NCBI RefSeq assembly: GCF_007860095.1
Contig: NZ_SJPT01000017.1
Coordinates: forward strand, 1-64,000
Source of the DNA: Novipirellula galeiformis
GTDB taxonomy: Bacteria > Planctomycetota > Planctomycetia > Pirellulales > Pirellulaceae
Reading direction: 5' to 3'
Length of the DNA stretch: 64,000 bases
The notes under the pieces were generated by a model. That model searched no databases. It saw nothing but the letters and a program-made list of their open reading frames with translations, and had not been told where the DNA came from. Numbering within the stretch: the stretch's first letter is position 1; every line of letters starts with the position of its first letter. The translations under genes were made by a program, and so were the position numbers. Positions 22,105-43,950 of this stretch are shown piece after piece.

Positions 22105-23709
22105 ATGATTCCTACTAAAAGTGATTCGATAACGAACACACGGCCCCGCGTCTTGATCGCTGGCCTTTTCCACGAGTCACACACGTTCGTGGAAGGGCCG
22201 ACGCGATGGAGCGAGATGACGGTCTACCGCGATGATGAACTGCTCAAGCTCAGCGGCGACGCGTCCCCGATGGGTGGAGTCCTGGAGTTTGCCGCCGCGG
22301 AAGGCTGGGACGCGCTGCCGACGATCTACGCCGCGACCACGCCGGGCCCAACGCTCGATGACGACGTCTTAGAAAACTTCTGGTCGGAGTTTCAACAGCG
22401 GGCTGTGCGGTTCGGTTCCGATTCACGTGAGCTTGCGTCGCCTGGGATCGATGGCATCTTCCTTGTACTCCATGGCGCATCGGTGTCGCGTTCGGTTGCC
22501 GATGTCGAAGGGGAACTGCTAGCCCGAATCCGCGGCCTCGAGGGCTTCGAAACGCTACCCATCTTTGGCGTGTACGATCTTCACGCGAACTTTTCCGATG
22601 CGATGGCAAAGCACTCCAATTGTCTGGTGGGCTACCGAGAGAACCCCCACACCGACGCACGGGAGTCATCGATTCGGGCGGCGAAGCTACTCAGCCAATC
22701 ATTGCAAACGGGCGTCCGCCCGCGTCAAATCGTGTCACGCCCAGGCATCGTTTGGCCGCCGACGGGGACCGCGACGGCCAGCAAACCGATGTCCACATTG
22801 TTGACGAGGGCACGCCAACTCGAGCGAGATCACCCCGACTTCTTGGCGGTCAGCGTTAACGCGGGGTTCTCTTTTGCCGACACAGCCGATACCGGCGTTT
22901 CGTTCTTGATTTCCACTGCTGGCGATCTTCAGGAAACGCAACCCGCGATCGAATCCCTCCATGCCCTAGCGTTTGAGAACGCGTCCGTTGGCAACGCGAC
23001 CGACGAACCGATAGCAGCGGTGATGGAGCAACTAGAGCAGTTAAAAAAACTCGGCCAACTCGATGGTTTAACATTACTGATCGAGCCCTCCGATAACGTT
23101 GGCGGCGGCGCGCCGGGCAGCGGTATCACGATGCTCCGTGTTTTGATCGAAGCTGGCTACACCGGCATTGGCGTCTGCTTGTGGGACCCGCCGGCCGTCG
23201 ATGCTGCCTCGCAAGCAAAGCCTGGAGACGTGATGACGCTCCAGCTCGGCGGTCGCGGCAGCAGCCTACTCGACCCTCCAATCAATCTCCAGTGCGAATT
23301 ACTGCATTTCGGTGACGGCGTGTTTGAATTAGAGGACAAGCAAAGTCATTTGGCATCCTGCGTCGGCGACCATTTCGACATGGGCCAAGTTGCCGTCGTT
23401 CGCGCGACCGACCCAAACATGTCTGGCGGCGAGGCAATCATCTTGTTGACCACCCTCCGCACTCCACCGATGGATTTGGGCTCATGGCGACACGTCGGAA
23501 TCGACCCAGAATCTTTTTCGGTCATGCCAATCAAGGCGGCGGTCTCCCACCGCCAGGCCTACGATCCGATCGCCAAACGTCAGTTTTGGGTTGATACTCC
23601 GGGGCCATGTTCCTCGCGATTGGAGTCCTTTGCGTTTCAAAATTTAACCCGCCCGATTTATCCACTCGATCCACTCGCCGAAGTGATCGGCAACCGCCCA
23701 AACGGCTGA
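22105..23709 (+). CDS. M81-family metallopeptidase (MlrC-like, DUF1485)
   Basis: 534 residues. It begins a few residues before PRVLIAGLFHESHTFV, the hallmark HE..TF opening of DUF1485/MlrC proteins. Further family segments are GDASPMGGVLEFAAAEGWD, GIDGIFLVLHGASVSRSVAD (H-G-A), IFGVYDLHANFSDAM (D-H-N), LVGYRENPHTDARE (P-H.D), and PSDNVGGGAPGSGITMLR at the start of the C-terminal domain. MlrC itself finishes linearised microcystin degradation; most relatives are amidohydrolases of unknown substrate. GAGAGACAG precedes the ATG. It is the first gene of a plus-strand run (M81, RidA, D-threonine-aldolase-like, MFS). A perfect hairpin straddles its stop codon. Confidence 0.88.
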   Translation: MIPTKSDSITNTRPRVLIAGLFHESHTFVEGPTRWSEMTVYRDDELLKLSGDASPMGGVLEFAAAEGWDALPTIYAATTPGPTLDDDVLENFWSEFQQRAVRFGSDSRELASPGIDGIFLVLHGASVSRSVADVEGELLARIRGLEGFETLPIFGVYDLHANFSDAMAKHSNCLVGYRENPHTDARESSIRAAKLLSQSLQTGVRPRQIVSRPGIVWPPTGTATASKPMSTLLTRARQLERDHPDFLAVSVNAGFSFADTADTGVSFLISTAGDLQETQPAIESLHALAFENASVGNATDEPIAAVMEQLEQLKKLGQLDGLTLLIEPSDNVGGGAPGSGITMLRVLIEAGYTGIGVCLWDPPAVDAASQAKPGDVMTLQLGGRGSSLLDPPINLQCELLHFGDGVFELEDKQSHLASCVGDHFDMGQVAVVRATDPNMSGGEAIILLTTLRTPPMDLGSWRHVGIDPESFSVMPIKAAVSHRQAYDPIAKRQFWVDTPGPCSSRLESFAFQNLTRPIYPLDPLAEVIGNRPNG

Positions 23710-23724
23710 TTAGCCGTTTGGGCG
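23695..23724. repeat. perfect 13-bp hairpin over the M81 gene stop codon
   Basis: CGCCCAAACGGCT-gatt-AGCCGTTTGGGCG; the loop and the last stem base contain the TGA stop. There is no T-run, so it is not a classic terminator. The AGCCGTTTGG core is shared with the ends of element Y near 6710 and 7160, so it may be a member or relic of the same repeat family that supplied the stop region. It could also protect the mRNA 3' end or reduce read-through into the RidA gene. Confidence 0.75.
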
Positions 23725-23789
23725 TGAACCGTGGTTCCGGCATCCAATCCTTATCTCAACTCAAAACAGTTACTTCAGAAGTTCGATCC

Positions 23790-24179
23790 ATGTCCAATTC
23801 CCAGGTTTCTTATCCTCGCGACGCCGACACGCCGGTTTCCCACCTACCATTCAGTCCGTGTGTCGTCGTTGGCAATCTCGTTTTTGTCTCCGGCCAGGCA
23901 TCCGTCGACAAGACCGGCAAGATCATCTCGGGTGACATCGAAAGCGAATTCCGCCGATCGATAGAAAACGTGGAAGCCGTTTTGAAGACGGCCGGTACGG
24001 ATTTGGCCCACGTGGTTCAAACTCGCAATTACGTTCGCGAGGAAAGCGACTTGGCGAAATACAACGAGTTGTACGCCGAGTATTTCAAAGATCCGAAACC
24101 CGCGCGCACGACGATCGTGAAGTGCTTAGGCGACAACCTTCGCTATGAAGTCGAATGCATCGCCGTCCTACCGGAATGA
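23790..24179 (+). CDS. RidA/YjgF/UK114 family enamine/imine deaminase
   Basis: Using the ATG at 23790 gives 129 residues, the normal size for RidA; the longer open frame from 23607 runs back through the M81 gene and is not needed. Motifs: VVGNLVFVSGQASVD, the ENVEAVLKTAGTDLAHVVQ helix, FKDPKPARTTIVKC with the carboxylate-binding arginine, and YEVECIAVLPE at the C-terminus. RidA hydrolyses reactive enamines released by PLP-dependent dehydratases and aldolases, which fits the PLP enzyme encoded directly downstream. Spacing: 80 bp after the M81 stop, 34 bp before the next start. Confidence 0.93.
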   Translation: MSNSQVSYPRDADTPVSHLPFSPCVVVGNLVFVSGQASVDKTGKIISGDIESEFRRSIENVEAVLKTAGTDLAHVVQTRNYVREESDLAKYNELYAEYFKDPKPARTTIVKCLGDNLRYEVECIAVLPE

Positions 24180-24213
24180 TCCACCCGAACCTCCCGCGCA
24201 GAAGCGAATCCCC

Positions 24214-26762: not shown

Positions 26763-26771
26763 GTTTTGCGA

Positions 26772-26826
26772 TTGTGTTAAACACACGCTAAACGCGGGAG
26801 ATCACGCGACGGCTCCTCAATTCAAC
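26772..26826 (+). promoter_or_regulatory. conserved 55-bp upstream element, copy A (before sialidase 1)
   Basis: TTGTGTTAAACACACGCTAA ... CTCAATTCAAC. Ungapped alignment to copies B (30510-30564) and C (34637-34691) over all 55 bp. It lies 73 bp before the sialidase ATG. It contains TGTGTT-A-AACACA, a perfect inverted pair that copies B and C have only in part. TGCTACGAT about 20 bp beyond the element resembles an extended -10. Operator/promoter role is inferred from position and conservation. Confidence 0.6.
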
Positions 26827-26899: not shown

Positions 26900-28066
26900 A
26901 TGCGACTTCACTGCTCAGCTTCGATTTTTGCCCTATCCATCGCGACTTGCCTTGTGGCCGCGACCGCTCACGGCCAACAGGCAACGCCACAAGGCGTGGC
27001 CCCAGGGATCGAAAAACCACTGCGGATTTCCCCCCGACCTGAAAATGGCCGGAACAGCGAGGGAGATTTTATCCAACTCAAAGACGGACGACTTTTGCTC
27101 GTTTACACGAAGTTCATCGGTACCGGCGATCACGCTCCCGCCGAACTCGTGGCACGGCACTCCACAGACGGTGGCGAGACGTGGAGCGAAGAGGATATGC
27201 CGATTCTCTCACGAAAGTCGGGCGAGACGAACTTGATGTCGGTTTCACTGCTGCGTCTGCAAGATGACCGGATCGCACTGTTTTATGCCCTAAAATATGT
27301 GGGTCCGCCGGGAACAAAGTATTCACAACTGGATCATATCGTGATGCGCACCAGCGCTGACGAAGGGGCGACATGGTCGGAGCCGACCTACGTAGTGCCG
27401 AAAGACCAACCGGGCTATCGCGTACTCAACAATGACCGCGTGATCCAGCTGAAGTCTGGTCGGCTGGTGGTGCCACTGGCCGTTCACTATCTACCAGGTT
27501 GGTCGGGGTGGCGGAACTCGGCGCAGATCGTTTGTTACCTATCCGATGACAATGGCAAGACATGGCGCGCGAGCACCAGCACGCTGGAATCCGAACTACT
27601 GGCTCAGGAACCCGGCGTGGTGGAATTAAAGAATGACGAATTGATGATCTTCTGTCGCAGCCGTGATTGCCAGCTCGTCTCGCATTCCAAAGATGGTGGC
27701 GAGACGTGGTCCGCGCTGCAGCGATCGAACATCGCTCAACCAGCCACCTCGCCGGCTTCGATCGAACGAATCCCATCAACCGGTGATTTGCTATTGGTGT
27801 GGAATAATGGCGACGACCCACTGGCCGCCGTCAAGCCGACCGGCCGTCGCCCATTTACAGCGGCGATCTCTAAAGATGAAGGTGCCACGTGGCAGCACAT
27901 GCGGAACATCGGCACCGATCCACAGGGTTGGTATTGCTACACGGCGATCGAGTTCGTTGGTGATCACGTGGTGCTGGGCCATTGCGAATACCCCGGCTTG
28001 AATTCACTGCAAATCACTCGTTTCCCGGTCACTTGGCTGTACCAGTCAAGCGACGCCGCCGAGTGA
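26900..28066 (+). CDS. secreted sialidase-fold (BNR/Asp-box) protein, copy 1
   Basis: 388 residues: a signal peptide (cleavage near residue 25, ATAHG), then a six-bladed sialidase-type propeller. Five Asp-boxes are visible (S-x-D-x-G-x-T-W) at about 88, 152, 215, 263 and 324. VLNNDRVIQLKSGRLVVPLA and MRTSADEG are typical of exo-sialidase-like proteins widespread in planctomycetes (DUF/BNR_2 group). True sialidases need an Arg triad, Tyr and Glu that I cannot place with confidence, so the substrate might be another glycoside. Copy 2 at 30639 differs at about 17 residues. Before this ATG the sequence is AGAAAAAATC; copy 2 has AGAAAAGGTC, so the ribosome site is weaker here. Preceded by regulatory element A. 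Confidence 0.85.
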   Translation: MRLHCSASIFALSIATCLVAATAHGQQATPQGVAPGIEKPLRISPRPENGRNSEGDFIQLKDGRLLLVYTKFIGTGDHAPAELVARHSTDGGETWSEEDMPILSRKSGETNLMSVSLLRLQDDRIALFYALKYVGPPGTKYSQLDHIVMRTSADEGATWSEPTYVVPKDQPGYRVLNNDRVIQLKSGRLVVPLAVHYLPGWSGWRNSAQIVCYLSDDNGKTWRASTSTLESELLAQEPGVVELKNDELMIFCRSRDCQLVSHSKDGGETWSALQRSNIAQPATSPASIERIPSTGDLLLVWNNGDDPLAAVKPTGRRPFTAAISKDEGATWQHMRNIGTDPQGWYCYTAIEFVGDHVVLGHCEYPGLNSLQITRFPVTWLYQSSDAAE

Positions 28067-30006: not shown

Positions 30007-30055
30007 GAAGTTTTCCAGGAACCGGAGACGCTCCTTACTGGCGCGTCATGATTAG

Positions 30056-30494: not shown

Positions 30495-30509
30495 CAACTC
30501 TTTTTGTGT

Positions 30510-30564
30510 TTGTGTTAGATAAACGCTAAACGCGCGAGATCACGCGATGGTTTCTCAATTCAAC
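30510..30564 (+). promoter_or_regulatory. conserved 55-bp upstream element, copy B (before sialidase 2)
   Basis: TTGTGTTAGATAAACGCTAA ... CTCAATTCAAC; seven differences from copy A by my count, no gaps. It ends 74 bp before the sialidase 2 ATG. TTGCTACGATCTT downstream matches the extended -10-like sequence of copy A. Confidence 0.6.
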
Positions 30565-30638
30565 AAGCGTCTGGTGCATGTTCGGGATCTTGCTACGATC
30601 TTCAACGACACGTCTCCACCTTAGAAAAGGTCATCATT

Positions 30639-31805
30639 ATGCGACTTCACTACCGAGCTTCGATCTTTGCTCTGTCCATCGCGACTTGCCTTGTGGCCGC
30701 GACCGCTCACGGCCAACAGGCAACGCCACAAGGCGTGGCCCCAGGGATCGAAAAACCACTGCGGATTTCCCCCCGACCTGAAAATGGCCGGAACAGCGAG
30801 GGAGATTTTATCCAACTCAAAGACGGACGACTTTTGCTCGTTTACACGAAGTTCATCGGTACCGGCGATCACGCTCCCGCCGAACTCGTGGCACGGCACT
30901 CCACAGACGGTGGCAAGACGTGGAGCGAAGAGGATATGCCGATTCTCTCACGAAAGTCGGGCGAGACGAACTTGATGTCGGTCTCCCTACTGCGTCTGCA
31001 AGATGACCGGATCGCACTGTTTTATGTCCAGAAATATGTGGGTCCGCCGGGAACAAAGTATTCACAACTCGATTATATCTTGATGCGCACCAGTGCTGAC
31101 GAAGGGGCGACATGGTCGGAGCCGACCTACGTAGTGCCGAAAGACGAACCAGGCTATCGCGTGCTCAACAATGACCGCGTGATCCAGCTGAAGTCTGGTC
31201 GGCTGGTGGTTCCGCTGGCTGTTCACTATTTACCGGGCTGGTCGGGGTGGCGGAACTCGGCGCAGATCGTTTGCTACCTATCCGATGACAATGGCAAGAC
31301 ATGGCGCGTGAGCACCAGCACGTTGGAATCCGAACTGCTGGCCCAGGAACCCGGCGTGGTGGAATTAAAGAGCGGTGAACTGATGATGTTCGTTCGCAGT
31401 CGCGATTGTCAACTTGTCTCGCATTCCAAAGATGGTGGCGAAACGTGGTCGGCGATGCAGCGATCGAATATCGCCCAGCCGAGCGCCTCGCCGGCTTCGA
31501 TCGAACGAATCCCATCAACCGGTGATTTGCTATTGGTGTGGAATAACGGCGACGACCCGCTGGCCGCAGTCAAGCCGACCGGCCGTCGCCCATTTACAGC
31601 GGCGATCTCTAAAGATGAAGGTGCCACGTGGCAGCACATGCGGAACATCGGCACCGATCCACAGGGTTGGTATTGCTACACGGCGATCGAGTTCGTTGGT
31701 GATCACGTGGTGCTAGGGCATTGCGAGTACCCCGGTTTGAATTCACTGCAAATCACTCGTTTCCCGGTCACTTGGCTGTACCAGTCAAGCGACGCCGCCG
31801 AGTGA
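30639..31805 (+). CDS. secreted sialidase-fold (BNR/Asp-box) protein, copy 2
   Basis: 388 residues, same architecture as copy 1: signal peptide ending near ATAHG, then five Asp-boxes at the same positions. About 17 amino-acid differences from copy 1, clustered at residues 96-173 and 223-283; a 240-bp stretch near the 5' end (30675-30914) is identical in DNA to 26936-27175. AAAAGG stands 9 nt before the ATG, a better ribosome site than in copy 1. The DUF1559 gene follows after 291 bp without the transposase relic found in module 1. The changes include GGETWS to GGKTWS in the first Asp-box and FCRSRD to FVRSRD. Substrate as uncertain as for copy 1. Confidence 0.85.
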   Translation: MRLHYRASIFALSIATCLVAATAHGQQATPQGVAPGIEKPLRISPRPENGRNSEGDFIQLKDGRLLLVYTKFIGTGDHAPAELVARHSTDGGKTWSEEDMPILSRKSGETNLMSVSLLRLQDDRIALFYVQKYVGPPGTKYSQLDYILMRTSADEGATWSEPTYVVPKDEPGYRVLNNDRVIQLKSGRLVVPLAVHYLPGWSGWRNSAQIVCYLSDDNGKTWRVSTSTLESELLAQEPGVVELKSGELMMFVRSRDCQLVSHSKDGGETWSAMQRSNIAQPSASPASIERIPSTGDLLLVWNNGDDPLAAVKPTGRRPFTAAISKDEGATWQHMRNIGTDPQGWYCYTAIEFVGDHVVLGHCEYPGLNSLQITRFPVTWLYQSSDAAE

Positions 31806-33065: not shown

Positions 33066-33319
33066 AGAGTTTTTCAGGAAGCCGGAGACGCTCCTTACGG
33101 TCACGCAATGATTGGCCCCAAAGAGGCCAATCATTTATCCTCGAGTGGAACTCGGGGACGTGAGGCTCACGAGCGTTTCCAGCCTCGATAAGGGTGATCG
33201 CACAACCTGACTGCAAACTTGCGGTCCCCACGGTCGAAACGACATCGTGGCCAATCGCAAACTCCGGCGCTCCCACTACAACAACGAAACAACCCAACTT
33301 CATTTAGCAGGATAAACTG

Positions 33320-33736
33320 GTGTTCAAAACTGTATCAATGTGTGTACTGGTCTGCTTGACCATCGGGTGCGGAACAGAGAACGAGATCGGTCGGCGACCG
33401 GTCAACGGAACCGTGACATTCGACGGCAAACCGCTTGCGTCCGGCCAGATTCGATTTGTTCCCGTGCCGTCCGGCCCCGTGGGCGTTGCTGCCATTTCCC
33501 AGGGCAAGTATGAAGTCACGAACAAGGGCGGCGTTCCGTTGGGCGAAACCAAAGTGGAAATCGTCGCCACCAATGATGCGGCTCCAATGACGCTTGAGGA
33601 AATGGATGCCAACCCCAATTCCAAACCACCACAGGCTCTCGTCATTCCGCCTAAGTACAACCAGGCATCAGAACTGCGAGCCACCATCGAATCTGGCTCC
33701 GGCATGCAAACAGCAGACTTTGAGCTGACGAAATAG
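33320..33736 (+). CDS. small lipoprotein of the DUF1559-associated type
   Basis: 138 residues from a GTG at 33320, with AGGA 8 nt upstream. MFKTVSMCVLVCLTIGCGTE is a lipoprotein signal: the lipobox LTIGC puts the lipidated cysteine at about residue 17. The mature part, RRPVNGTVTFDGKPLASGQI, then RFVP, is the carboxypeptidase-regulatory-like (beta-sandwich) start typical of the small lipoproteins encoded after DUF1559 genes in planctomycetes; KYEVTNKGGVPLGETKVEIV continues the fold. The role is unknown, probably structural at the membrane. Module 1 has no counterpart; its sequence jumps from just after the DUF1559 stop to CACCGAGGGACAG. Confidence 0.82.
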   Translation: MFKTVSMCVLVCLTIGCGTENEIGRRPVNGTVTFDGKPLASGQIRFVPVPSGPVGVAAISQGKYEVTNKGGVPLGETKVEIVATNDAAPMTLEEMDANPNSKPPQALVIPPKYNQASELRATIESGSGMQTADFELTK

Positions 33737-33740
33737 AAAG

Positions 33741-34183
33741 CACCGAGGGACAGAGCATTGCTCCTGAGCACATGAATCACCCTATTCGGAGGTGGCGATG
33801 GCTTGGGACGTTTTGTGATTTGGAAAACGGCATCGAGGTGTTAAATCACCTCGAGACAATGCTCATGTTGCGGTTCCGGCGACGCGGATTCATAGCTCCA
33901 TCATCGGATCGTTCAACCTGGATTTTGGACACGATGAAGCATCGCCACGGACGATAGATCAGCCGCCAGAAGTTCGCGAACTCCTCGGCAAAGGTGGCAC
34001 CGCCGCAGCGTTCGGTAACAACACACCGAGCCTGCGCCGCACATAGCAAACTTGCAAAACACAAAATACACTATCTGCTCGGGGCCAAACCGGGTGATCA
34101 CAAACACTTGTTTGCTCAAGTGATTGACGAAATGTCGACCGCGGCTCAGCTGACTCGCCGGCCACTGGAAACCATCACGTGAC
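33741..34183 (+). pseudogene. degenerate transposase fragment, module 2 copy
   Basis: Counterpart of 30056-30494. The end encodes HYLLGAKPGDHKHLFAQVID, then EMSTAAQLTRRPLE; the initial ATG of the module 1 fragment has become ATA. It runs to CATCACGTGAC (34173-34183), where a second, unrelated remnant begins. Confidence 0.55.
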
Positions 34184-34624: not shown

Positions 34625-34636
34625 TCTCGCTTGTGC

Positions 34637-34691
34637 TTGTGTTAGAGACACGCTAAACGAGAAAGGCCACATGACGGTTTCTCAATCCAAC
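34637..34691 (+). promoter_or_regulatory. conserved 55-bp upstream element, copy C (before symporter operon)
   Basis: TTGTGTTAGAGACACGCTAA ... CTCAATCCAAC; about 12 differences from copy A, no gaps. It ends 82 bp before the symporter ATG, much the same spacing as before the sialidases. The downstream extended -10-like TGCTACGAT of copies A and B is not conserved here. Confidence 0.55.
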
Positions 34692-34773: not shown

Positions 34774-36273
34774 ATGGCCCCTATTGATTGGATCATCCTG
34801 CTTATCTACGCGTTGTCGACCATTGGCCTGGGATGGTATTTTGGTCGCAAGCAAGAGAGCTCGGACGAGTATTTCGTAGGCTCGGGAAAGATGAACCCGA
34901 TCTTGATCGGCGTTTCATTGTTCGCGACCTTGCTGAGCACGATCAGCTATCTGGCGCTGCCGGGTGAAGTTGCTGGAAAGGGTCCGAGTTTTCTGACTAA
35001 CTACCTTGCCTACCCCTTCATCTATCTATTCATCGCGATGATTCTGTTGCCCGTTTACATGCGACAACGGGTCACGAGTGCGTACGAGCTATTGGAGAAT
35101 CAGTTGGGGCTGAGCATCCGGATGCTGGGCGCAACGATGTTCCTGCTGTTGCGACTGGTTTGGATGTCGGTGTTGGTTTATCTGACCGCCAAAGCGATCG
35201 CGACGATGATCGGCGTGGGCGACGAAATGGTGCCTTGGATTGTCTTGGTCACCGGCGCCTTCGCCATCACGTACACGTCGCTAGGTGGGTTGCGTGCCGT
35301 TGTGATCACCGACCTCATGCAAACGGTGCTGCTTTACGGCGGTGCGCTGCTGGTCCTGGGGACCATCACATGGAACATGGGCGGGTTTGGCTGGTTCCCG
35401 ACGCAGTGGCAATCGGACGTCTGGGATAGGCAGCAAATTTTCAGCTGGGACCCGGCGACCCGAGTGACGGTGTTTGGTTCGATATTGTCGGTATTCTTAT
35501 GGACGGTTGCCACTGCGGCAGGCGATCAGGTGGCCGTGCAGCGATTCATGGCGACCAAGGACGCAAAAACGGCGCGACGAGCGATCGCAATCCAGCTAGC
35601 AGTGGGGGCGATCGTTGGAATCACCCTGGGTTTGGTAGGGGTCGCATTACTGGGATACTACCAGGCCAACCCCGAATTATTGCCACGCGACACAACGTTA
35701 CGGCTCCAAGCCGACGAATTGTTTCCGTACTTCATCGCCAACCGGCTTCCCCCGGTCATCACCGGTTTGGTCGTGTCGGGATTGTTTGCCGCCGCGATGT
35801 CTAGCATCGACTCAGGCGTCAACTCAATCACTGCCGTCGTCATGACCGATTTCCTAGATCGTTTCGGATGGAAACCATCAACGCAAGCCAAGCATCTGCT
35901 GTTTGCGAGGTTGTTGGCAGTCGCAATCGGTGCCGTTATCGTTCTGTCGAGCAGTCTGATTCAGTACATTCCCGGCAACTTCTTGGCGATCACGAACAAA
36001 ACCGTCAACCTGCTCTCGATCCCGATTGCATTGCTGTTTTTCTTTGCACTGTTTGTGCCTTTCTCCAACGCAATCGGCGTTTGGATTGCCACAATCGCGA
36101 GCGTTAGCGTGGCTGTGTTGGTTGCTTTCTCAGGCGTGATTTTTGGGGTGAATCCCGAAACGGGCAATGATCCCATCAGCTTTCAATGGATCCAACCAGC
36201 CGCTTTGTTAACCGGTGTCAGCGTCGGCCTCGTCGCGTGCAAACTATTTTCCAAAGAAGAACCCGCCCCATAG
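34774..36273 (+). CDS. sodium:solute symporter (SSS family)
   Basis: 499 residues, about 13 transmembrane helices. IDWIILLIYALSTIGLGWYF and SDEYFVGSGKMNP are the usual first helix and periplasmic/cytoplasmic loop of SSS proteins. FATLLSTISYLALPGEVAGK lies in the helix with the sodium-site serines. SLGGLRAVVITDLMQTVLLY is the most conserved family motif, and SGLFAAAMSSIDSGVNSI is the late Ser-rich motif. Members import sugars, sialic acid, amino acids or vitamins with Na+. First gene of a five-gene run (symporter, aldolase, SDR, deacylase, PLP lyase). The 55-bp element upstream is shared with the two sialidases, which suggests that it imports what they release. No good ribosome site before the ATG. 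Confidence 0.9.
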   Translation: MAPIDWIILLIYALSTIGLGWYFGRKQESSDEYFVGSGKMNPILIGVSLFATLLSTISYLALPGEVAGKGPSFLTNYLAYPFIYLFIAMILLPVYMRQRVTSAYELLENQLGLSIRMLGATMFLLLRLVWMSVLVYLTAKAIATMIGVGDEMVPWIVLVTGAFAITYTSLGGLRAVVITDLMQTVLLYGGALLVLGTITWNMGGFGWFPTQWQSDVWDRQQIFSWDPATRVTVFGSILSVFLWTVATAAGDQVAVQRFMATKDAKTARRAIAIQLAVGAIVGITLGLVGVALLGYYQANPELLPRDTTLRLQADELFPYFIANRLPPVITGLVVSGLFAAAMSSIDSGVNSITAVVMTDFLDRFGWKPSTQAKHLLFARLLAVAIGAVIVLSSSLIQYIPGNFLAITNKTVNLLSIPIALLFFFALFVPFSNAIGVWIATIASVSVAVLVAFSGVIFGVNPETGNDPISFQWIQPAALLTGVSVGLVACKLFSKEEPAP

Positions 36274-36336
36274 CCGCGTCATCTTTCATCATTCGAAACC
36301 CAGCTCCACAAACCCAAACACCTGTCGATTCAATCA

Positions 36337-37098
36337 ATGAGAACAAGCAAAACACTTGCGAAAATACGCAGCGGTGAGATCATTCGCACGTGCGTCATGG
36401 GACATTACATTCCAGCCTATGTCTGCCACGCAGCACGAGCGGGATACGACTGCATCTGGGTCGACCTGGAACACCGAGCGATGACGAGTCGCGAAGTGGA
36501 AGCCTTGCTCGCATTCTCGCATCTGTACGACATCGACATCATGCTCCGTCCTCCCACATTGGGGAAAACGCGACTGTCTCGTTATCTCGAGGACGGTGCT
36601 GCGGGGCTGATGATTCCGCATGTATCAACGGTGGACAAAGCCAAGATGTTGGTGGATGCCGTCAAGTTTCCTCCGCTAGGAGATCGCGGACTGGACAATG
36701 CTGGATTGGACGCCGACTTCCATATCCATGACGCCGATGAGTACGTTGCCTGGGCGAACCGCGAAACGTTTTTGTGTGTGCAAATCGAAACGCCAGAAGG
36801 CGTTCGCAATGCGGACGCCATTGCGGCTGTTGAAGGTGTCGACATGATTTTTGTCGGTCCAGGAGACCTTGGACTTCGACTTCGTCAGAGCGGAGAGATG
36901 ACGCTCGACGAAGCATGGGAGATCATTGCCACGGCGTGTCGCAAACACAACAAGGCATTTGGTGGCCCGGTGGTCGCTGATGGCGAGATGCAGAAAAGAA
37001 AAGACCAGGGTGCGAAGCTGCTGGTCAACAGCAGCGAATTCCATGGTTGGTCCACCTCCCTATCACAAGACAGTCTGAAATTTGATGCCCTCCGATGA
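36337..37098 (+). CDS. HpcH/HpaI-family class II aldolase
   Basis: 253 residues of the pyruvate/phosphoenolpyruvate TIM-barrel superfamily. GYDCIWVDLEHRAMT contains the catalytic-region D-E-H, DGAAGLMIPHVSTVDKAK the conserved barrel strand, FLCVQIETPEGVRNADAI the metal-binding glutamate (Q-I-E-T), and VDMIFVGPGDLGLRL the metal-binding Asp (GP.DL). These enzymes cleave 4-hydroxy-2-oxo acids to pyruvate plus an aldehyde with a divalent metal, as in 2-keto-3-deoxy-sugar-acid or homoprotocatechuate catabolism. It ends 5 bp before the preferred SDR start. The substrate is probably the 2-oxo acid derived from the imported compound; inferred from the operon. Confidence 0.9.
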   Translation: MRTSKTLAKIRSGEIIRTCVMGHYIPAYVCHAARAGYDCIWVDLEHRAMTSREVEALLAFSHLYDIDIMLRPPTLGKTRLSRYLEDGAAGLMIPHVSTVDKAKMLVDAVKFPPLGDRGLDNAGLDADFHIHDADEYVAWANRETFLCVQIETPEGVRNADAIAAVEGVDMIFVGPGDLGLRLRQSGEMTLDEAWEIIATACRKHNKAFGGPVVADGEMQKRKDQGAKLLVNSSEFHGWSTSLSQDSLKFDALR

Positions 37099-37102
37099 AC
37101 CC

Positions 37103-37897
37103 ATGCGTCTGAATTCCAAACGGGCACTCGTCACGGGGGCTGGTAAAGGCATCGGTCGAGGCTGTGCCCTTGAGCTGGCGCGGGCGGGTGCTGACCTGAT
37201 TCTCAATGATCGCCCGGGCAGTCAAGAGCTCGCACAGACGGCTGACGACATTCGCGCACTGGGGCGCCAGTGCTGGACTGTAGAGGCCGACGTGTTTTCA
37301 CCTGACGGCTGCGCCGCGCTGATCCAATCAGCGATTCAGCAGGCTGGTGAAATCGATATTCTGATCAGCAATCCGGCCTACGGAAAACGAGATCGCTTTC
37401 TGGATTTTTCGACAAGCGAGTTCGACAAGGTAATCGACGCCACGTTCAAGTCTGGCTTTCACATCGCCCAAGCGATGGCCCGCCATCGCGTTGAACTTGG
37501 GGGCGGCGGCAAGATCTTGTTCATTACCAGCGTTGTGGCGGAGATGCCGTTTGAAGAGTGTTCACCTTACAGCGCCGCCAAAGCAGCGTTGAATCAACTC
37601 ACACAGTGCATTGCCGTGGAGTTATTCTCACACCGAATCAATGTCAACGCAATCGAACCGGGCTGGATCGACACGCCAAACGAACGCGTGACCTTCTCCG
37701 ATGACGTCATCGACTCGAGCGGCGCTAGCCTGCCTTGGGGTCGACTCGGCACGCCAGCTGATATTGGTAGAGCAGCGACGTTTTTAGTATCCGATGCTGC
37801 GGACTACATCACCGGCACCGTGCTTCCTGTTGACGGCGGATTTCGATTCAAGGACATGCGCAGTGTTTCTCAATTGGCACCCAAAAAAGCGACATGA
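37103..37897 (+). CDS. short-chain dehydrogenase/reductase (SDR)
   Basis: 264 residues from the ATG at 37103. The frame also holds an ATG at 37085 and a TTG at 37082, both inside the aldolase gene; 37103 places RALVTGAGKGIGRGCALELA at the usual distance. The TGxxxGIG nucleotide-binding glycine motif, ISNPAYGKRD (in place of the common NNAG), FITSVVA with the catalytic serine region, and YSAAKAALNQL (Tyr-x-x-x-Lys) are visible. INVNAIEPGWIDTP and the C-terminal GTVLPVDGGFRFKD are classical-SDR signals. It oxidises or reduces a hydroxyl, probably of a sugar or sugar acid in this pathway. It overlaps the next gene by 4 bp (ATGA type). Confidence 0.9.
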   Translation: MRLNSKRALVTGAGKGIGRGCALELARAGADLILNDRPGSQELAQTADDIRALGRQCWTVEADVFSPDGCAALIQSAIQQAGEIDILISNPAYGKRDRFLDFSTSEFDKVIDATFKSGFHIAQAMARHRVELGGGGKILFITSVVAEMPFEECSPYSAAKAALNQLTQCIAVELFSHRINVNAIEPGWIDTPNERVTFSDDVIDSSGASLPWGRLGTPADIGRAATFLVSDAADYITGTVLPVDGGFRFKDMRSVSQLAPKKAT

Positions 37898-38859
37898 ACA
37901 TGACAGATGCCTCGCTGTTTGACTATCGAGAATTTACCAGTGACTGCGATGGCCCCCGGTTGCTGATCACTGCTGGGATTCATGGTGATGAGTATCTGCC
38001 GATGCTGGCAGTGAAGGAATTGATCGATCGATTTGATACCGACGCTGAGCTTCGTTCGAGCCTACGCGGCAGCCTCACGTTGATTCCGATTGCCAACCAG
38101 GCGGCCTTTGAACGAGGCAATCGATGCGGTGCGGATAACATCGACCTTGCCCGCGTCTTCCCAGGAACGCCTAACGGCAATCCGACGGAGCAACTTGCCT
38201 GCGCGTTAAGTGACCAGATTCGCAGAGCCGATTTTTTCGTCGATCTGCATACCGGAGGCACCGAGCTGTGCGTCTTTCCAATGGCAGGATACACCCTGCA
38301 TTCGGATCAGTCCATTTTGGAGCAACAACGTCAATTAGCGGTTGCATTTGGGTTACCGTTTGTCTGGGGAACGTCTGCCGAGTTGCAGGGACGCTCGCTA
38401 TCGCTGGCTCGCGATTGTGGAGTCCCCGCGATTTATGTCGAGTACCTGGGTGCCCACCGCGAGCTCGCGGAGGCCATATCTGGGGCCGCACAATCGCGGA
38501 CGCCCGATCATCCGCTGGTAGCGGGCTGCTTGAACGTGATGCGGCATCTGGGCATCTTGCCTGAAATCGCGGAACCGTTGCCTGCAGCCTGCGATGTTGT
38601 CGAAGATGAAAGACCCGGAGCGGGTCACATGCAAGCAGGACCCTCCGCACCCGCAACCGGTTTCCTTGTACCGGCCGTCGAACTAGGACAATCAATCGCG
38701 AAGGGTGATTTGCTGGCCGAGATCGTTACCGCAACCGACCGCACAAAGCATCAAGTACTATCACAGCAAAGTGGCCGAGTTCTGGTCATTCGTGACTATC
38801 CAAGAATCAATCAAGGCGAGGCCGTAGCGGTGGTTGCCGAAAGCGTTAAAGCAGAATGA
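37894..38859 (+). CDS. AstE/AspA-family metal-dependent deacylase (M14-like)
   Basis: 321 residues. RLLITAGIHGDEYLPMLAVK carries the HxxE zinc site (His-Gly-Asp-Glu), and ADFFVDLHTGGTELCVFPM carries the third zinc ligand histidine (D-L-H-T-G). GADNIDLARVFPG is the conserved N-I-D-L-A-R segment, and PAIYVEYLGAH has the catalytic glutamate region. The C-terminal beta domain (about 240-321) is the lipoyl-like or barrel-sandwich cap seen in N-acyl-diaminobutyrate deacetylases. The family removes acyl groups from N-acylated amino acids (aspartoacylase, succinylglutamate desuccinylase, DoeB). It starts ATGA overlapping the SDR stop and ends ATGA overlapping the PLP gene, so the operon is tightly coupled. 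Substrate not determinable here. Confidence 0.88.
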   Translation: MNMTDASLFDYREFTSDCDGPRLLITAGIHGDEYLPMLAVKELIDRFDTDAELRSSLRGSLTLIPIANQAAFERGNRCGADNIDLARVFPGTPNGNPTEQLACALSDQIRRADFFVDLHTGGTELCVFPMAGYTLHSDQSILEQQRQLAVAFGLPFVWGTSAELQGRSLSLARDCGVPAIYVEYLGAHRELAEAISGAAQSRTPDHPLVAGCLNVMRHLGILPEIAEPLPAACDVVEDERPGAGHMQAGPSAPATGFLVPAVELGQSIAKGDLLAEIVTATDRTKHQVLSQQSGRVLVIRDYPRINQGEAVAVVAESVKAE

Positions 38860-39929
38860 GCGTTTGGAACTGGAGTGATCGCTATTCACCAATCGTCGAC
38901 CCAGGCTTTCAGGTGACACTCGGCGAAGGACACACCGCGTGCGTCCGATCCCGGCGGATTGGGCCCGCGTTGGGAATCAAAAATCTGTACTTCAAGCTCG
39001 AATCGACCAACCCCAGTGGATCGTACAAAGATCGCTTTGCGGCGCTGGCGGTCAGCCACATGCTGCAGCGTAATCAAAGCACTTGCATTGCGACATCAAG
39101 TGGAAACACCGGCGCCGCCTTGGCCGCCTATTGTGCTGCGGCAGGAATTCGATGCCAGATTGCAGTTGTCGAATCAGCCCCGCTGGCCAAATTGCAACAA
39201 ATGATGGCCTATGGAGCCGAAATCCAGAAAGTCCGTGGCTTTGGGATGGACGCGGCGATTACGAATCAGGTCTTTGATCGCTTGCACCAACTTGCGGAAA
39301 GTCCTGAATGTGAATTGCAGATCAGCGCTTATCGTTTAAGTCCGTTGGGCATGCAGGGGGTCGAAAGCATCGCGTTTGAAATCCAAGCACAACTTTCTTC
39401 TTCGGATCGTTCGGTCGATCATGTCTTTTGTCCGGCAGGCGGGGGCGGATTGACGTTGGCAACGGCTCGCGGCTTCCTGAAAACTCCCGCAAGACCCGCC
39501 GTGCATTGTGTTCAGCCGGAAGGGAACGACACGATCGCCAGCCGGTTGCGCAATCGCAGCGATCAAGCCACCGACGTGCAGTGCACCACCTCGATCAGCG
39601 GTTTGCAAGTGGCCTCGGTGATCGACGGCCACGAGGTGATCGCGGCCTGCAGGGCATCGGGAGGCACCGGATATACCGTCAGTGATGCCGAAACGTTTGA
39701 AGCTCAAAAGCGGCTGGCGCGAGAAGAGGGCGTCTTCTGCGAACCTGCGGGTGCGGTTGCACTAGCGGGAGCTCTGAACGCGTTCCGCAAGGGCGAACTG
39801 GCGCCCGAGGCGTCTGTCGTCTGCATTGTTTCGGGCAGTGGATTCAAAGATGGCACCTCCGTTGAACGCATGAACCAGCATAGCGGCTATCAGCTTGTCG
39901 AGCTGGAGGATCTTTTCCAATCACAGTAG
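38856..39929 (+). CDS. threonine-synthase/dehydratase-like PLP enzyme (fold type II)
   Basis: 357 residues. KNLYFKLESTNPSGSYKDRF contains the PLP lysine (SGSYKDR), STCIATSSGNTGAALAAYCA the phosphate-cradle SSGNTG, and VFCPAGGGGLTLA the glycine-rich PLP-phosphate loop (GGGG). SGSGFKDGTS at the C-terminus resembles the S/T-G-x-G-x-K end of threonine synthases. The enzyme should catalyse beta- or gamma-elimination/replacement on a hydroxy-amino acid, such as threonine, serine or hydroxy-aspartate. Last gene of the operon; its stop is about 20 bp before the GGGGACAG array. A deacylase followed by a PLP eliminase suggests the pathway frees an amino acid and deaminates it; that is inference. Confidence 0.88.
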   Translation: MSVWNWSDRYSPIVDPGFQVTLGEGHTACVRSRRIGPALGIKNLYFKLESTNPSGSYKDRFAALAVSHMLQRNQSTCIATSSGNTGAALAAYCAAAGIRCQIAVVESAPLAKLQQMMAYGAEIQKVRGFGMDAAITNQVFDRLHQLAESPECELQISAYRLSPLGMQGVESIAFEIQAQLSSSDRSVDHVFCPAGGGGLTLATARGFLKTPARPAVHCVQPEGNDTIASRLRNRSDQATDVQCTTSISGLQVASVIDGHEVIAACRASGGTGYTVSDAETFEAQKRLAREEGVFCEPAGAVALAGALNAFRKGELAPEASVVCIVSGSGFKDGTSVERMNQHSGYQLVELEDLFQSQ

Positions 39930-39947: not shown

Positions 39948-40272
39948 TCGGGGACAGCTCGAGCTCGGGGACAGTGATAGCTCGGGGACAGGATCAGCTC
40001 GGGGACAGTGATCGCACAGACAGAGATCGGGGCCCCAGGTCGGGGACAGTGATCGTACGGAAGCCGTTGAGCACGGAAAGAGCTCGGGGACAGTGATCGC
40101 ACAGACAGAAACAGCTCGACAGATCGGGGCCCCAGGTCGGGGACAGAGGTCGGGGACAGTGATCGTACGGAGCTCGGGGACAGTGATCAGCTCGGGGACA
40201 GTGATCGCACAGACAGAGATCGGGGCCCAGGTCGGGGACAGTGATCGTACGGAAGCCGTTGAGCACGGAAAT
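39948..40272. repeat. REP-like array: 11 copies of GGGGACAG in direct orientation
   Basis: Eleven GGGGACAG motifs, mostly inside (AGCTC/AGGTC)GGGGACAGTGATC(G), at irregular spacing. Two blocks of about 85 bp (near 39995-40079 and 40188-40272) are almost identical and end GGAAGCCGTTGAGCACGGAA; a partly rearranged third block lies between. GGGGCCCC and GAGCTC palindromes are interspersed. The array lies 3' of the RAYT gene and faces the four inverted copies on its 5' side. The remaining gap to 40444 has no visible feature. Confidence 0.85.
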
Positions 40273-40444: not shown

Positions 40445-41545
40445 TCACAAGCGCTCGCTCAGTGGCGTCCGAGTGACGGACGGCGACACAGGCTGCTGAG
40501 CGACTTGCCGCTGAGCGGCGAGCCGGGCGCGCACGGCGCGACAAGCATGCTGACCGAGCTGGGTTTGACAGCGTCTGCTATAGCGTCTGTGCCGCTCCTG
40601 TAGCTCCAAGACGTTCACTTCTTTACCGTCTAAATAAATCGGCGTTTGCAGCTTGTCTTTCGTTAACATTTCGCTCGCCTGCAGCTCCGGTCGGGATTCC
40701 AGTGCTAGCTGCCACAATAGGCGTTCGTAAGCCTCAAGCGCCATCGGCAAACAACCAAGACGCGTTAAGATCTCCGTGCGATTAGCTGATCCCACATCCG
40801 TTTTGCTTGAGTTTTCTGCTACAGGATTTAGCGGTTGCGCGACCACTTCGCTGGCCAATTCCAGTGGCGCCAACCACTCCGAAGTGTCCGGCACGCCGCC
40901 GGAGAGTGTCCGCAAACGCTCGCCGATCGAAACTTCACTGTAGTCATCGAGCGAATCGGCCAATCCGGCGCGAAGCGGATTGAGATCGACGTACGCCATA
41001 CAGGCCAGCACTGCGGGCTCATCTTCGAGGCGTTTCAGTTTAAAACGCTCTTCAAAGAACCGCCCCGTGCACTCGTCTTCTAAGTTACATTCACGCGCAA
41101 TCGTCTGACACATCAAGCGGATAAACCACGAAATATCCGATAGCCTCAATCGAAGCTCGGCAACACGCGAGGGGTCGCTCGTGATTTGCGTGATTTCACT
41201 TCCTTGGATTTCTCCTCCAAGTTTGTTTTGACAGCGCTTTCGCGAAGTCAACGAGAGCCAGCGCACCGCGACCTGCCGATCGCTTAACGCCCGGACTAGG
41301 TCGGGGCGGTTGCGTAGCACGCAGTGCCAATGGTTCGGGATGATAGCAAAGGCAAGCACATCGATACAGAATCGCTGGGCCAGGAACTGCATTCGCTGGC
41401 GAAACCGCTCGCGGCGGTAGCCATAGTCGATGCCGGTGAGCGGATCGACTCCGTGCAAGTAGCTTCGTCTGACGGTGCGATTAAACGCGTGGTAAACCCC
41501 CACTTCATCGCGTGCAAACGTACAACATCGACTTGTCCGGGACAT
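40445..41545 (-). CDS. REP-associated tyrosine transposase (RAYT, IS200-like Y1 family)
   Basis: 366 residues. FAIIPNHWHCVLR contains the HUH pair (His72, His74) that binds the metal, and MAYVDLNPLRAGL contains the likely nucleophile Tyr185 in the Y-x-x-x-NP setting typical of RAYTs. CTGRFFEERFKLKRLED lies between. The N-terminus RDEVGVYHAFNRTVRR is also usual. The C-terminal 150 residues are longer than in minimal Y1 transposases and are Arg/Gln-rich at the end. RAYTs cut single-stranded DNA at hairpins beside REP sequences and are usually immobile domesticated genes. Here the gene is flanked by inverted GGGGACAG arrays (11 copies 3', 4 copies 5'), presumably its substrate. It stands between the PLP gene and sialidase 3. 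Confidence 0.88.
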   Translation of the reverse strand: MSRTSRCCTFARDEVGVYHAFNRTVRRSYLHGVDPLTGIDYGYRRERFRQRMQFLAQRFCIDVLAFAIIPNHWHCVLRNRPDLVRALSDRQVAVRWLSLTSRKRCQNKLGGEIQGSEITQITSDPSRVAELRLRLSDISWFIRLMCQTIARECNLEDECTGRFFEERFKLKRLEDEPAVLACMAYVDLNPLRAGLADSLDDYSEVSIGERLRTLSGGVPDTSEWLAPLELASEVVAQPLNPVAENSSKTDVGSANRTEILTRLGCLPMALEAYERLLWQLALESRPELQASEMLTKDKLQTPIYLDGKEVNVLELQERHRRYSRRCQTQLGQHACRAVRARLAAQRQVAQQPVSPSVTRTPLSERL

Positions 41546-41865: not shown

Positions 41866-41877
41866 ACCTCTCTTCAA

Positions 41878-43767
41878 TTAACGATAAAACCAAGTGACGG
41901 GCAGCGATCGAAATCGGCACGAGTACCCGCCTTTGCCCTGGTCCCAATAGCTCATTACCGCCCGGTCGCCCACAAAGATGAGACTGATGTACGAAAACGT
42001 GCGACTCGAATCAGACTCCAAGTTGCCCACCACCGTCCACGTTTCACCTTCGTCACGCGAGATGGCCGCCGTCAATGGAGTTCGCTTGCCGCCATGCCCC
42101 GCTCCGGGGGCATAGGTATTGTTCCAGATTAACAGCAGGTCCCCCGTGGACGGAATCCGCCGCAAGGTAGTGGGAGCCTCTGGCCCCTGAATCCCCAGCG
42201 ACGTCATTGGTCCCCAGGTGTCTCCGCCATCCTCCGAATACGCTTTGCCCGGATAACCTAGCTGAGTCCTGACGAGCATCATGATGCGGCCATCCTTTAG
42301 TTCGATGACTTCCGGTTCCATCGCTCCGCGTTTGTCCGCGTCCACCTTGCCTTTGCTATCTCGCCACGTTTTCCCCCCGTCATCGGACAGAAAGCAGTGC
42401 GATTGAAAGTGATTGTTAGTCGCTACATCTGGTGTCGATGCGGCGGGCAGCAACAGACGTCCGGTCGATAAAGCCGTGATGCGATCGTTGTTGACAACGT
42501 GGTAACCGGCGGCCGTAGACACCTTCACCGGTTCTCCAAACGTCGCCCCTTCGTCTGTGGAGATTCGCAGGTACGGGGTCAGCTCGCTGTGACTGTTTTT
42601 CTGCAGATAGACCATCCCAATCGAACCATCGGCCAATCGCCGCAAGGTGACGCTCATCACATTCATGCCGCCCGTGTTGGGCTGCAGTACGCGAGACGCT
42701 GACCACGTCCGGCCACCATCGGTGGACTGGCGTGCCACCACATGCGCCTGCGCAAAATCACTGCCACTGCCGTGAAATTCGGTGACGGCAAACAACAGCG
42801 AACCATCATTTAAGGCCACGATCGAACCCTCGGTGTAACGAGGATGCTCAGGCTTGGCTTGATACACCAGCGTTGAAACGTCAGCGTCGCTCGGTTCCGG
42901 CACAGGCCCGCTCAAAACCAATAGCGACTGCGCCGCGCGATAAGATGTGTCTGCGTTCTCGTCATCGAGAAGCTGCTTGAGGGAATCCACGACGCCGGTG
43001 GCCCAAGCGTCCCCAGCGAACGTGGCTGCATAGGTTCGCACAGCCGGGTCCGGTGCGTGCAAGTTTGCTGCCAAGGCCCGCAGCCCCTCCGCGTCGCCCA
43101 GCGCCGCCAAGGAATGATGGACATACGCTTTCTGTATGGCATCGTCGCAGCGTGGCAGTTGAGCTTTGATCTGCGGGATGTCCGCTGCGTTTCCAATCCG
43201 CCCCAAAATCCACACCGCAATTCGAAGTACATCTAGGTCTTCGCTATTTAATGAGTCGCGGAGAAACTGCATCGCATCCGGATTACCGCAGCGGCCCAGC
43301 GCGGCAGCTGCCATCAGCTTGAGTATTCGCATATCATCGGTAGTTGCGAACGCCTTTCGCAGGGCCACACCGTCACCAATCTCGACTACTTTGTAGAGGC
43401 TCTCGGCTGCGTGAACGTGACCGTAGGGATCGTCGCCAGCCAGTATGTCCAACATCACCGTGGTGCGAGCTTTGTCACCGGCACGAACGAGTTCGCGAGC
43501 GATCCCACAGCGCCGTTGATCGTCTTTTTCTGCCGCCAGTTTATCAGTCAGGTAATCGCGGACTTCGTCGCCGTAGCCGGCCAGCGTCAGCCCCTCGGCT
43601 GCATGAATCGACGGCCAGAACTCGTCGCTGCGTAGCCCAGATCGCAAAATCTCTAGACACCGCTGACGCGTCGGCTCGTCCAACGAGATCGGCGTCCGCT
43701 CGGCTGCCGATAGGTTGACTGACAACAATGTGATACTGATCAATAACGGATATACAAGTGTGTTCAT
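41878..43767 (-). CDS. secreted HEAT-repeat / sialidase-fold fusion protein
   Basis: About 629 residues from the ATG at 43767, which starts the signal peptide MNTLVYPLLISITLLSVNLS (AAE). The frame extends to a GTG at 43851 without a ribosome site at either. Residues about 35-290 are alpha-helical HEAT-like repeats (IHAAEGLTLAGYGDEVRDYL, HVHAAESLYKVVEIGDG, LMAAAALGRCGNPDAMQFL, AVWILGRIGNAADIPQI, SLAALGDAEGLRALA). The C-terminal half is a sialidase propeller with five Asp-boxes (STDGGRTWS, STDEGATFG, SDDGGKTWR, SEDGGDTWG, SRDEGETWT). The propeller resembles the two duplicated sialidases (VVNNDRITALSTGRLLLPA; RRIPSTGDLLLIWNN). The HEAT part probably mediates protein contact. The RAYT array begins right after its stop. 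Confidence 0.85.
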   Translation of the reverse strand: MNTLVYPLLISITLLSVNLSAAERTPISLDEPTRQRCLEILRSGLRSDEFWPSIHAAEGLTLAGYGDEVRDYLTDKLAAEKDDQRRCGIARELVRAGDKARTTVMLDILAGDDPYGHVHAAESLYKVVEIGDGVALRKAFATTDDMRILKLMAAAALGRCGNPDAMQFLRDSLNSEDLDVLRIAVWILGRIGNAADIPQIKAQLPRCDDAIQKAYVHHSLAALGDAEGLRALAANLHAPDPAVRTYAATFAGDAWATGVVDSLKQLLDDENADTSYRAAQSLLVLSGPVPEPSDADVSTLVYQAKPEHPRYTEGSIVALNDGSLLFAVTEFHGSGSDFAQAHVVARQSTDGGRTWSASRVLQPNTGGMNVMSVTLRRLADGSIGMVYLQKNSHSELTPYLRISTDEGATFGEPVKVSTAAGYHVVNNDRITALSTGRLLLPAASTPDVATNNHFQSHCFLSDDGGKTWRDSKGKVDADKRGAMEPEVIELKDGRIMMLVRTQLGYPGKAYSEDGGDTWGPMTSLGIQGPEAPTTLRRIPSTGDLLLIWNNTYAPGAGHGGKRTPLTAAISRDEGETWTVVGNLESDSSRTFSYISLIFVGDRAVMSYWDQGKGGYSCRFRSLPVTWFYR

Positions 43768-43950
43768 CGCAAGCATTCGTTGAAGCCGACTGAGCGGCAA
43801 AGATACATCGGAGCCCTGTTCTGGTAGGCTATATTGAGACCATGTCGCCACATCTTACACGGTTTGCACCTTCGGTGTGGACCTTCAGTGCCGAGTTTTC
43901 AGCCCGCCGAGTTCAGGTCCCCCGAAAGAGAAAAAGTGGAATGTCGAGCA

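Follow-up and report, generated by a model that had tools for sequence, protein, structure and literature searches.

A conserved five-gene operon of Novipirellula galeiformis and its possible role in the non-phosphorylative oxidative catabolism of N-acetylated amino sugars

Background

Which compound is broken down by an operon that encodes a symporter, a pyruvate aldolase, a dehydrogenase, a deacylase and an enzyme dependent on pyridoxal phosphate (PLP)? The question is raised by five genes located at positions 34774 to 39929 of the first 64,000 nucleotides of contig NZ_SJPT01000017.1 of the planctomycete Novipirellula galeiformis (assembly GCF_007860095.1); this whole stretch is called here the window, and it corresponds to contig C17 of a 7.4-Mb genome. 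A first-pass annotation had proposed that these genes degrade an acylated amino-sugar or hydroxy-amino-acid compound by a route different from the NanA/NanK/NanE pathway and from the ectoine set. In this work we conclude that the operon is real, that it is a coherent catabolic unit as had been proposed, and that it probably represents a new variant of oxidative amino-sugar catabolism. The more specific proposal, that its products import an N-acetylated amino sugar and degrade it completely by oxidation, without phosphorylation, we regard as evenly balanced.

The catabolism of N-acetylglucosamine (GlcNAc), N-acetylgalactosamine (GalNAc), N-acetylmannosamine (ManNAc) and N-acetylmuramic acid (MurNAc) has been described as starting with a phosphorylation, the acid GlcNAc1A being the contrast (PMC9537276). 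According to the same source, in the ong pathway, by which Pseudoalteromonas prydzensis degrades chitin oxidatively, GlcNAc1A is imported by an SSS transporter, deacetylated by OngB, a relative of D-aminoacylases, and deaminated by the fold-type-III PLP enzyme OngC to 2-keto-3-deoxygluconate (KDG), which is then phosphorylated; the RidA protein of this pathway, OngD, is essential. This marine pathway is the closest known system, with similar chemistry carried out by unrelated D-type enzymes.

Organization of the operon

The five open reading frames (ORFs) were found where the first-pass annotation had placed them, all on the + strand, and Pfam confirmed every family with a score above its cut-off. 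The first gene (34774..36273) encodes a Na+ symporter of the SSS family of 499 amino acids (SSF, 113.4 bits), the proposed importer, whose best solved relative is SiaT (5nv9). After 63 bp follows the gene for a class II pyruvate aldolase of the HpcH/HpaI family (36337..37098, 253 amino acids; HpcH_HpaI, 88.7 bits for a cut-off of 25), related to YfaU and GarL and proposed to act on 2-keto-3-deoxyaldonates. The third gene encodes an SDR dehydrogenase (37103..37897, 264 amino acids; adh_short_C2, 192.3 bits), a proposed amino-sugar 1-dehydrogenase; the fourth, a deacylase of the AstE/AspA zinc family (37894..38859, 321 amino acids; AstE_AspA_cat, 89.5 bits), a proposed N-acetyl-aminoaldonate deacetylase; and the fifth, a fold-type-II PLP enzyme (38856..39929, 357 amino acids; PALP, 253.4 bits), a proposed aminoaldonate ammonia-lyase. 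The tight junctions reported earlier are also present: the ATG of the SDR gene at 37103 lies 4 bp past the stop codon of the aldolase gene at 37098 (the ORF listing starts the SDR gene earlier, at a TTG at 37082), and the SDR/AstE (37894/37897) and AstE/PALP (38856/38859) junctions are both ATGA overlaps. Among the NCBIfam matches listed, which are the 25 best of 229 for the SDR and the 25 best of 44 for the PLP enzyme, no equivalog scored above its cut-off for any of the five proteins; therefore, their database names are family guesses.

Conservation of the gene set

The co-occurrence of these genes was analyzed in 246 planctomycete genomes. The clade of AstE orthologues is sharply bounded (10 genomes with E ≤1.5e-69, the next match being at 4.9e-34), and so is that of the PLP enzyme (12 genomes with E ≤1.1e-109 and nothing further up to 1e-45). 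Both occur together in nine genomes, with a p value of 2.8e-13 that ignores kinship, and five of the nine belong to one genus; yet a genome from another family of the phylum (G133) still carries AstE, PALP, the symporter and an M81 metallohydrolase together. As a control, 20 relatives of AstE from outside its clade were examined, and none has a partner family within ~1.5 kb, while at least one partner lies beside each of the 10 in-clade genes, the window included. The result is the same when only the genes of the window are used as seeds, but in five of the 10 the sole match is then an SDR of 25-26% identity.

A second set consisted of loci retrieved by a search with the AstE alignment in one genome per species, from which the best 80 of at least 501 relatives were kept; neighbouring families were counted around AstE by tblastn, and all counts suffer from short contigs and from the restriction to the best 80. 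The families found were PALP in 34 loci (every one with at least 50% identity), the SDR family of the operon (SDR1) in 42 (38 with at least 50% identity), HpcH in 30 (21), SSS in 13 (10), M24 in 12, M81 in 11 and the aldolase family RraA in 8. Adjacency on the same strand was observed for SDR-AstE in 35 loci (in one of them, L201, the SDR has only 30% identity), for AstE-PALP in 23 and for HpcH-SDR-AstE in 13.

The earlier annotation had named scattering of the gene set in related genomes as a point against a new pathway, and this holds in part. In G024, as in five genomes of one genus (G048, G069, G181, G227 and G238), the genes are distributed among several loci. On the other hand, four of the 80 loci have the five genes in order on one strand: Rhodopirellula solitaria (L128), two metagenome-assembled genomes (MAGs) of Verrucomicrobiales (L131 and L133) and a planctomycete MAG (L150). 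R. solitaria is the nearest named relative found (proteins 79-88% identical), and it has an M81 gene and then a RidA gene directly upstream of the five. In both Verrucomicrobiales loci a HEAT-repeat gene is inserted after the symporter, and L133 keeps the 4-bp SDR/AstE and AstE/PALP overlaps despite protein identities of 53-74%.

The PLP enzyme and the deacylase

The first-pass annotation had called the PLP enzyme a threonine-synthase-like lyase. As regards the fold this is right: with VIA-align, the best match of the predicted model is the threonine synthase 6nmx_A (Z 42.5, rmsd 2.2, 335 residues aligned), ahead of the threonine deaminase 8zkv_B (Z 34.1, rmsd 3.0, 309 aligned), and Lys58 and the SGN of the SSGNTG motif are kept in all 45 distinct rows of the alignment. 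In contrast, Arg160 of the Thermus thermophilus threonine synthase (ThrS), which we take to bind the phosphate of the substrate, aligns with Gly165, and the 45 rows have Gly (40), Ser (3) or Ala (2) at this position and never Arg. With the ThrC model TIGR00260 the operon enzyme scores 143.3 bits, under the cut-off of 167.1, whereas a separate ThrC encoded on contig C1 reaches 218.8; in the five genomes tested, a separate ThrC is above the cut-off and the operon enzyme or its orthologue (four of them) is below. A role as the housekeeping threonine synthase was rejected on these three grounds. Because the Arg160 position is not Arg and a separate ThrC scores above the cut-off, this protein is probably a ThrS-fold enzyme with another function. 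In the superfamily, β-elimination from 2-amino-3-hydroxy acids is a common alternative.

In AstE, residues His30, Glu33, His119 and Glu183, presumably the metal and catalytic positions of the family, are invariant across 10 aligned orthologues.

The aldolase position and the proposed pathway

In the aldolase of the operon, His46, Arg71, Glu151 and Asp177, which we assume to be the metal and catalytic residues, are kept in 26 of 26 distinct rows. It shares these Glu, Asp, Arg and His positions and the HpcH/HpaI family with YfaU/RhmA and GarL, the aldolases of non-phosphorylative sugar-acid pathways, but its NCBIfam scores (84-101 bits) are far under their cut-offs (369-441), which places it in a separate subfamily.

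Each of the nine genomes with AstE and PALP has a candidate for this position: HpcH only in two (G024 and G133), a DapA-like gene only in six (G121 and the five of one genus listed above), and both in the genome of the window. In the G048 group the DapA-like gene adjoins PALP. Since the best solved relatives of its product are the YagE keto-deoxy-sugar aldolases, with NanA entries lower in the list, we favour its reading as an aldolase that fills the position of HpcH over its reading as NanA. A third pyruvate-aldolase family, RraA, appears in the same-strand run RraA-M24-AstE-SDR2-PALP-M81 in three of the 80 loci. HpcH, DapA-like and RraA proteins belong to unrelated families, all of which can cleave 4-hydroxy-2-oxo acids to give pyruvate plus a second carbonyl compound. 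From the use of three unrelated pyruvate aldolases we infer that the product of the PLP enzyme is a 4-hydroxy-2-oxo acid; the PLP enzyme would thus act on a 2-amino-3,4-dihydroxy acid, and AstE on the N-acyl derivative of this acid. We judge the succession of deacylation, β-elimination and aldol cleavage to be likely.

An N-acetyl-2-amino-2-deoxyaldonate fits such an N-acyl 2-amino-3,4-dihydroxy acid, and the SDR encoded beside AstE could supply the oxidation of the parent N-acetyl-hexosamine. In the proposed scheme the symporter would import the sugar or its acid, and the SDR would oxidize C1 of the N-acetyl-hexosamine to yield the N-acetyl-2-amino-2-deoxyaldonate, that is, an N-acetyl α-amino acid. 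The AstE/AspA enzyme would remove the acetyl group to leave the aminoaldonate, from which the PLP enzyme would eliminate the hydroxyl group and ammonia, as threonine dehydratase does, to form a 2-keto-3-deoxyaldonate and NH3; RidA may help in the hydrolysis of the enamine or imine. Finally, the HpcH/HpaI aldolase would produce pyruvate and glyceraldehyde.

That the substrate is an amino sugar is roughly an even proposition. Independent support comes from the gene context in the G048/G069/G181/G227/G238 genus, where a symporter gene of the SSS family is close to the AstE-SDR pair and, on the opposite strand, a NagK-like kinase (five of five genomes) and MurQ (four of five) are encoded. Of these genomes G069 was scanned: its MurQ exceeds the cut-offs (411-426 bits), but the kinase (108.7 bits of 370) and a nearby ROK regulator (144.3 of 650 with NagC) fall short of theirs.

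Several observations weigh against the scheme. Several genomes have a partial or divided gene set: this PALP is missing from G152, and G216, G061 and G130 have PALP and lack the AstE clade. Twenty of the 80 loci, some on short contigs, have none of the searched families adjoining AstE, and 16 of the 34 loci with PALP have neither HpcH (at least 50% identity) nor RraA in the stretch covered, two having both. The specificity of the SDR is not readable from its sequence; its listed NCBIfam matches, all under their cut-offs, resemble glucose 1-dehydrogenase, KduD and rhamnose 1-dehydrogenase. The scheme assigns no role to the neighbouring genes for M81, M24 and class-III aminotransferase proteins, and no assay of any enzyme from these clades was found in the open-access literature searched. 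NagB is above its cut-off in 10 of 15 genomes, and its census does not discriminate; many hosts may thus have the ordinary route too, and the oxidative route may often be an addition rather than a replacement.

Sialic acid as a possible source of the amino sugar

A narrower version of this scheme would begin with sialic acid. Sialidases would free N-acetylneuraminic acid (Neu5Ac), a lyase would convert it to ManNAc, the SDR would be an N-acylmannosamine 1-dehydrogenase, AstE would release mannosaminate, PALP would form KDG, and HpcH would split it into pyruvate and glyceraldehyde. We consider this account unlikely, and hold as doubtful its generalization to a non-phosphorylative oxidative ManNAc, and hence sialic-acid, route in bacteria of the Planctomycetes-Verrucomicrobia-Chlamydiae (PVC) group (ManNAc to N-acetylmannosaminate, to mannosaminate, to KDG and NH3, to pyruvate and glyceraldehyde).

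The first indication is the element that the first-pass annotation had described as a shared 55-bp sequence. The element is real, and it consists of 63 nucleotides in three + strand copies: one before each of two sialidase-fold genes (26764..26826 and 30502..30564) and one upstream of the operon (34629..34691). The best pairwise matches among the three upstream regions are 54, 47 and 51 of 63 positions, whereas 60 shuffles of the sequence upstream of the operon, compared with the one preceding the first sialidase-fold gene, gave 32 at most. With up to three mismatches the core motif occurs three times in the 7.4-Mb genome, always in this region, and a reversed control pattern does not occur. 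However, the element forms, with one sialidase-fold and one DUF1559-type gene, a unit that was recently duplicated in tandem (26764-34038; 300-nt blocks 96%, 92% and 83% identical), so part of the sharing may stem from duplication rather than from regulation. No conserved 63-nt element was seen in 11 other loci, where the best matches were 31-33 of 63 (33 in R. solitaria), about the shuffle level.

The two sialidase-like proteins of the BNR/GH33 fold (26900..28066 and its duplicate 30639..31805, both on the + strand) give a further indication. The model of the former (pLDDT 84.5) has GH33 sialidases as its top Foldseek matches (2bzd_A, E 1.2e-17, TMq 0.74), and Arg26, Asp52, Glu212, Arg228, Arg291 and Tyr320/322 occur at the expected spacings; from spacing, we take them to be the Arg triad and the catalytic Asp, Glu and Tyr. 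The predicted structure is thus that of a sialidase β-propeller with a candidate Arg triad, although Arg26 is not kept in the aligned homologues of G181 and G069. The linkage of the operon to such genes, claimed previously, is supported, although in the stretch covered 76 of the 80 AstE loci have no sialidase domain and only four have one. On the - strand downstream of the operon, 41878..43851 encodes a fusion of HEAT repeats with a sialidase fold, and its HEAT half is near AstE in 15 of the 80 loci; some relatives have this half as a gene of its own within the operon or close to it, placed after the symporter and before HpcH or SDR (L129-L133 and others), and the fusion is seen in the window and in L195. 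In the neighbour counts, a BNR label at that place corresponds to the HEAT half of a HEAT-BNR seed.

Other evidence is found in the enzymes and in the transporter. NanE was found in none of 15 genomes, compared with 8 of 14 control genomes (6 above the cut-off), and there is no kinase among the five genes; in these respects the gene set differs from the Nan pathway, as the first-pass annotation had claimed, and it resembles this pathway in its sialidase-fold genes, its SiaT-family transporter and its proposed amino-sugar target. L-specificity is typical of characterised AstE/AspA enzymes and of most fold-type-II dehydratases, and mannosaminate, L-configured at C2, would suit it. The D-configured gluco acid is handled in ong by D-type enzymes (PMC9537276).

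The symporter matches SiaT with an E value of 5.4e-48, but the position of SiaT Arg135 is occupied by Trp (Trp130 here) in the 17 distinct homologues of the SSS protein (23 rows); an invariant Arg127 three positions before qualifies this loss. Arg135 forms the salt bridge to the carboxylate of sialic acid (PMC5931594). The symporter was accordingly rejected as SiaT proper. Moreover, visual inspection of 8 of the 10 proteins of the genome that match the DHDPS family revealed no clear NanA, and the sole paralogue scanned (C7:26568) scored 93.8 and 71.1 bits with NanA models whose cut-offs are 281 and 382. The missing carboxylate arginine and the lack of a clear NanA in that survey make the sialic-acid version weaker than the general amino-sugar reading. 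The ordinary lyase step exists in the phylum, judging from two reports, one of NanA in some Planctomycetes and Verrucomicrobia (PMC2693436) and the other of a planctomycete isolate with NanA and NanK (PMC11929135).

If the ManNAc route were true, it would replace NanK/NanE/NagA/NagB, and the repertoire of known enzymes would grow by an aminoaldonate ammonia-lyase of fold type II and a sugar-acid deacetylase of the AstE type. N-acylmannosamine 1-dehydrogenase is an orphan activity from Flavobacterium, and it would gain a physiological pathway.

Other possible substrates

The same three steps could act on another N-acylated β,γ-dihydroxy amino acid, derived from the cell wall, from an opine-like compound or from a secondary metabolite, after an M81, M24 or M19 enzyme cuts a peptide-like conjugate. 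The chemistry of AstE, PALP and the aldolase does not need a hexose, M81 and M24 lie near AstE in 11 and 12 of the 80 loci, and M19 and M81 genes are present upstream in the window; nevertheless, a sugar is favoured by the SDR gene adjoining that of the deacylase and, in one genus, by the nearby MurQ and NagK-like genes, and we judge this explanation rather improbable.

A breakdown of an N-acyl diamino acid similar to that of ectoine or hydroxyectoine, with AstE as the analogue of DoeB, PALP as that of EutB and, in relatives, M24 as that of DoeA and an aldehyde dehydrogenase or class-III aminotransferase as those of DoeC/DoeD, is very unlikely: the deacetylase (DoeB/EutE) and dehydratase (EutB) families are shared, AstE obtains its highest NCBIfam score with DoeB (TIGR02994), the matches of PALP include EutB and M24 recurs near AstE, but the scores are far under the cut-offs (79.2 of 402.7 for DoeB and 60.1 of 413 for EutB), the sole M24 protein scanned, that of G152, resembles PepQ (106.5 bits, against 45 and 22 for DoeA models), the five genes include by Pfam no ring hydrolase and no DoeA-type gene, having instead an aldolase and an SDR, and ectoine breakdown has no place for a pyruvate aldolase. 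AstE as DoeB, and the gene set as an ectoine operon, were rejected on the DoeB score and the PepQ-like M24, in agreement with the first-pass annotation.

Relation to the ong pathway

Returning to the oxidative amino-sugar scheme, it shares with ong, as described in PMC9537276, an SSS importer, the deacetylation of an N-acetyl-aminoaldonate, a PLP-dependent deamination to 2-keto-3-deoxygluconate, RidA and a general resemblance to amino-acid breakdown; it differs in the AstE/AspA deacylase, the fold-type-II PLP enzyme, the direct pyruvate aldolase and the SDR. The importer agrees at the family level (the SSF match). Among the five operon genes there is no OngB-type deacetylase, fold-type-III deaminase or KDG kinase, so the operon is not a member of the ong group. 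A candidate of a fold-type-III family is encoded outside the operon, namely a PF01168/PF14031 protein of the D-serine dehydratase/alanine racemase type (24145-25320). The predicted archaeal GlcNAc route also differs from the operon (PMC12343721).

Searches of the open-access literature revealed no description of this gene set or of an aminoaldonate route that uses its families. If the scheme is true, Planctomycetota and Verrucomicrobiota would possess a second route free of phosphate, assembled independently of ong; two enzyme activities would be newly defined, and the names "threonine synthase" and "succinylglutamate desuccinylase" would be corrected for these clades. The operon would also offer a directly testable answer as to how planctomycetes that have sialidase-fold genes and no detectable NanE might use the released products.

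Neighbouring genes and other features

Upstream in the window, on the + strand, are an M81 (MlrC-like) metallohydrolase gene (22105..23709), whose counterpart in R. solitaria precedes RidA and the operon directly, and a RidA-family enamine/imine deaminase gene (23607..24179, taken from the first start codon; the true start is probably later). Between RidA and the symporter lie the D-serine-dehydratase-family gene, an MFS gene, the two sialidase-fold genes and two genes recognized by eye as DUF1559-type. The MFS protein resembles D-galactonate transporters (154.2 bits, cut-off 395). The row formed by M81, RidA, the D-serine-dehydratase-family gene and this transporter (22105-26762) is possibly an ong-like, D-type counterpart of the operon. 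Further upstream, 18852-20684 on the - strand carries genes for an M19 dipeptidase and an RraA-family aldolase.

The genome has two more SDR paralogues, both 55% identical to the operon SDR, at C2:591316-592080 (L118) and C12:115058-115768 (L119). The former has genes of the sialidase fold and of the DUF1559 type, one of each, in its vicinity, and the reading frame of the latter contains an in-frame TAG. In a plasmid collection AstE matched 552 records and PALP 125, all with less than 60% identity. A β-propeller protein with the motif WPQFRGP (PQQ-type by eye) is encoded in 14 of the 80 AstE loci; its gene is directly upstream of HpcH in L161, and a similar gene precedes SDR in L032.

Just downstream of the operon there is a possible element of the repetitive extragenic palindrome (REP)/REP-associated tyrosine transposase (RAYT) type. 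An ORF on the - strand (40445-41545) has the motif NHWHCVLR and is by eye similar to such transposases, with no Pfam match at 1e-3. It is flanked by repeated CTCGGGGACAGTGATC units, with repeats at 39992-40271 and inverted arms at 40170-40204 and 41836-41870.

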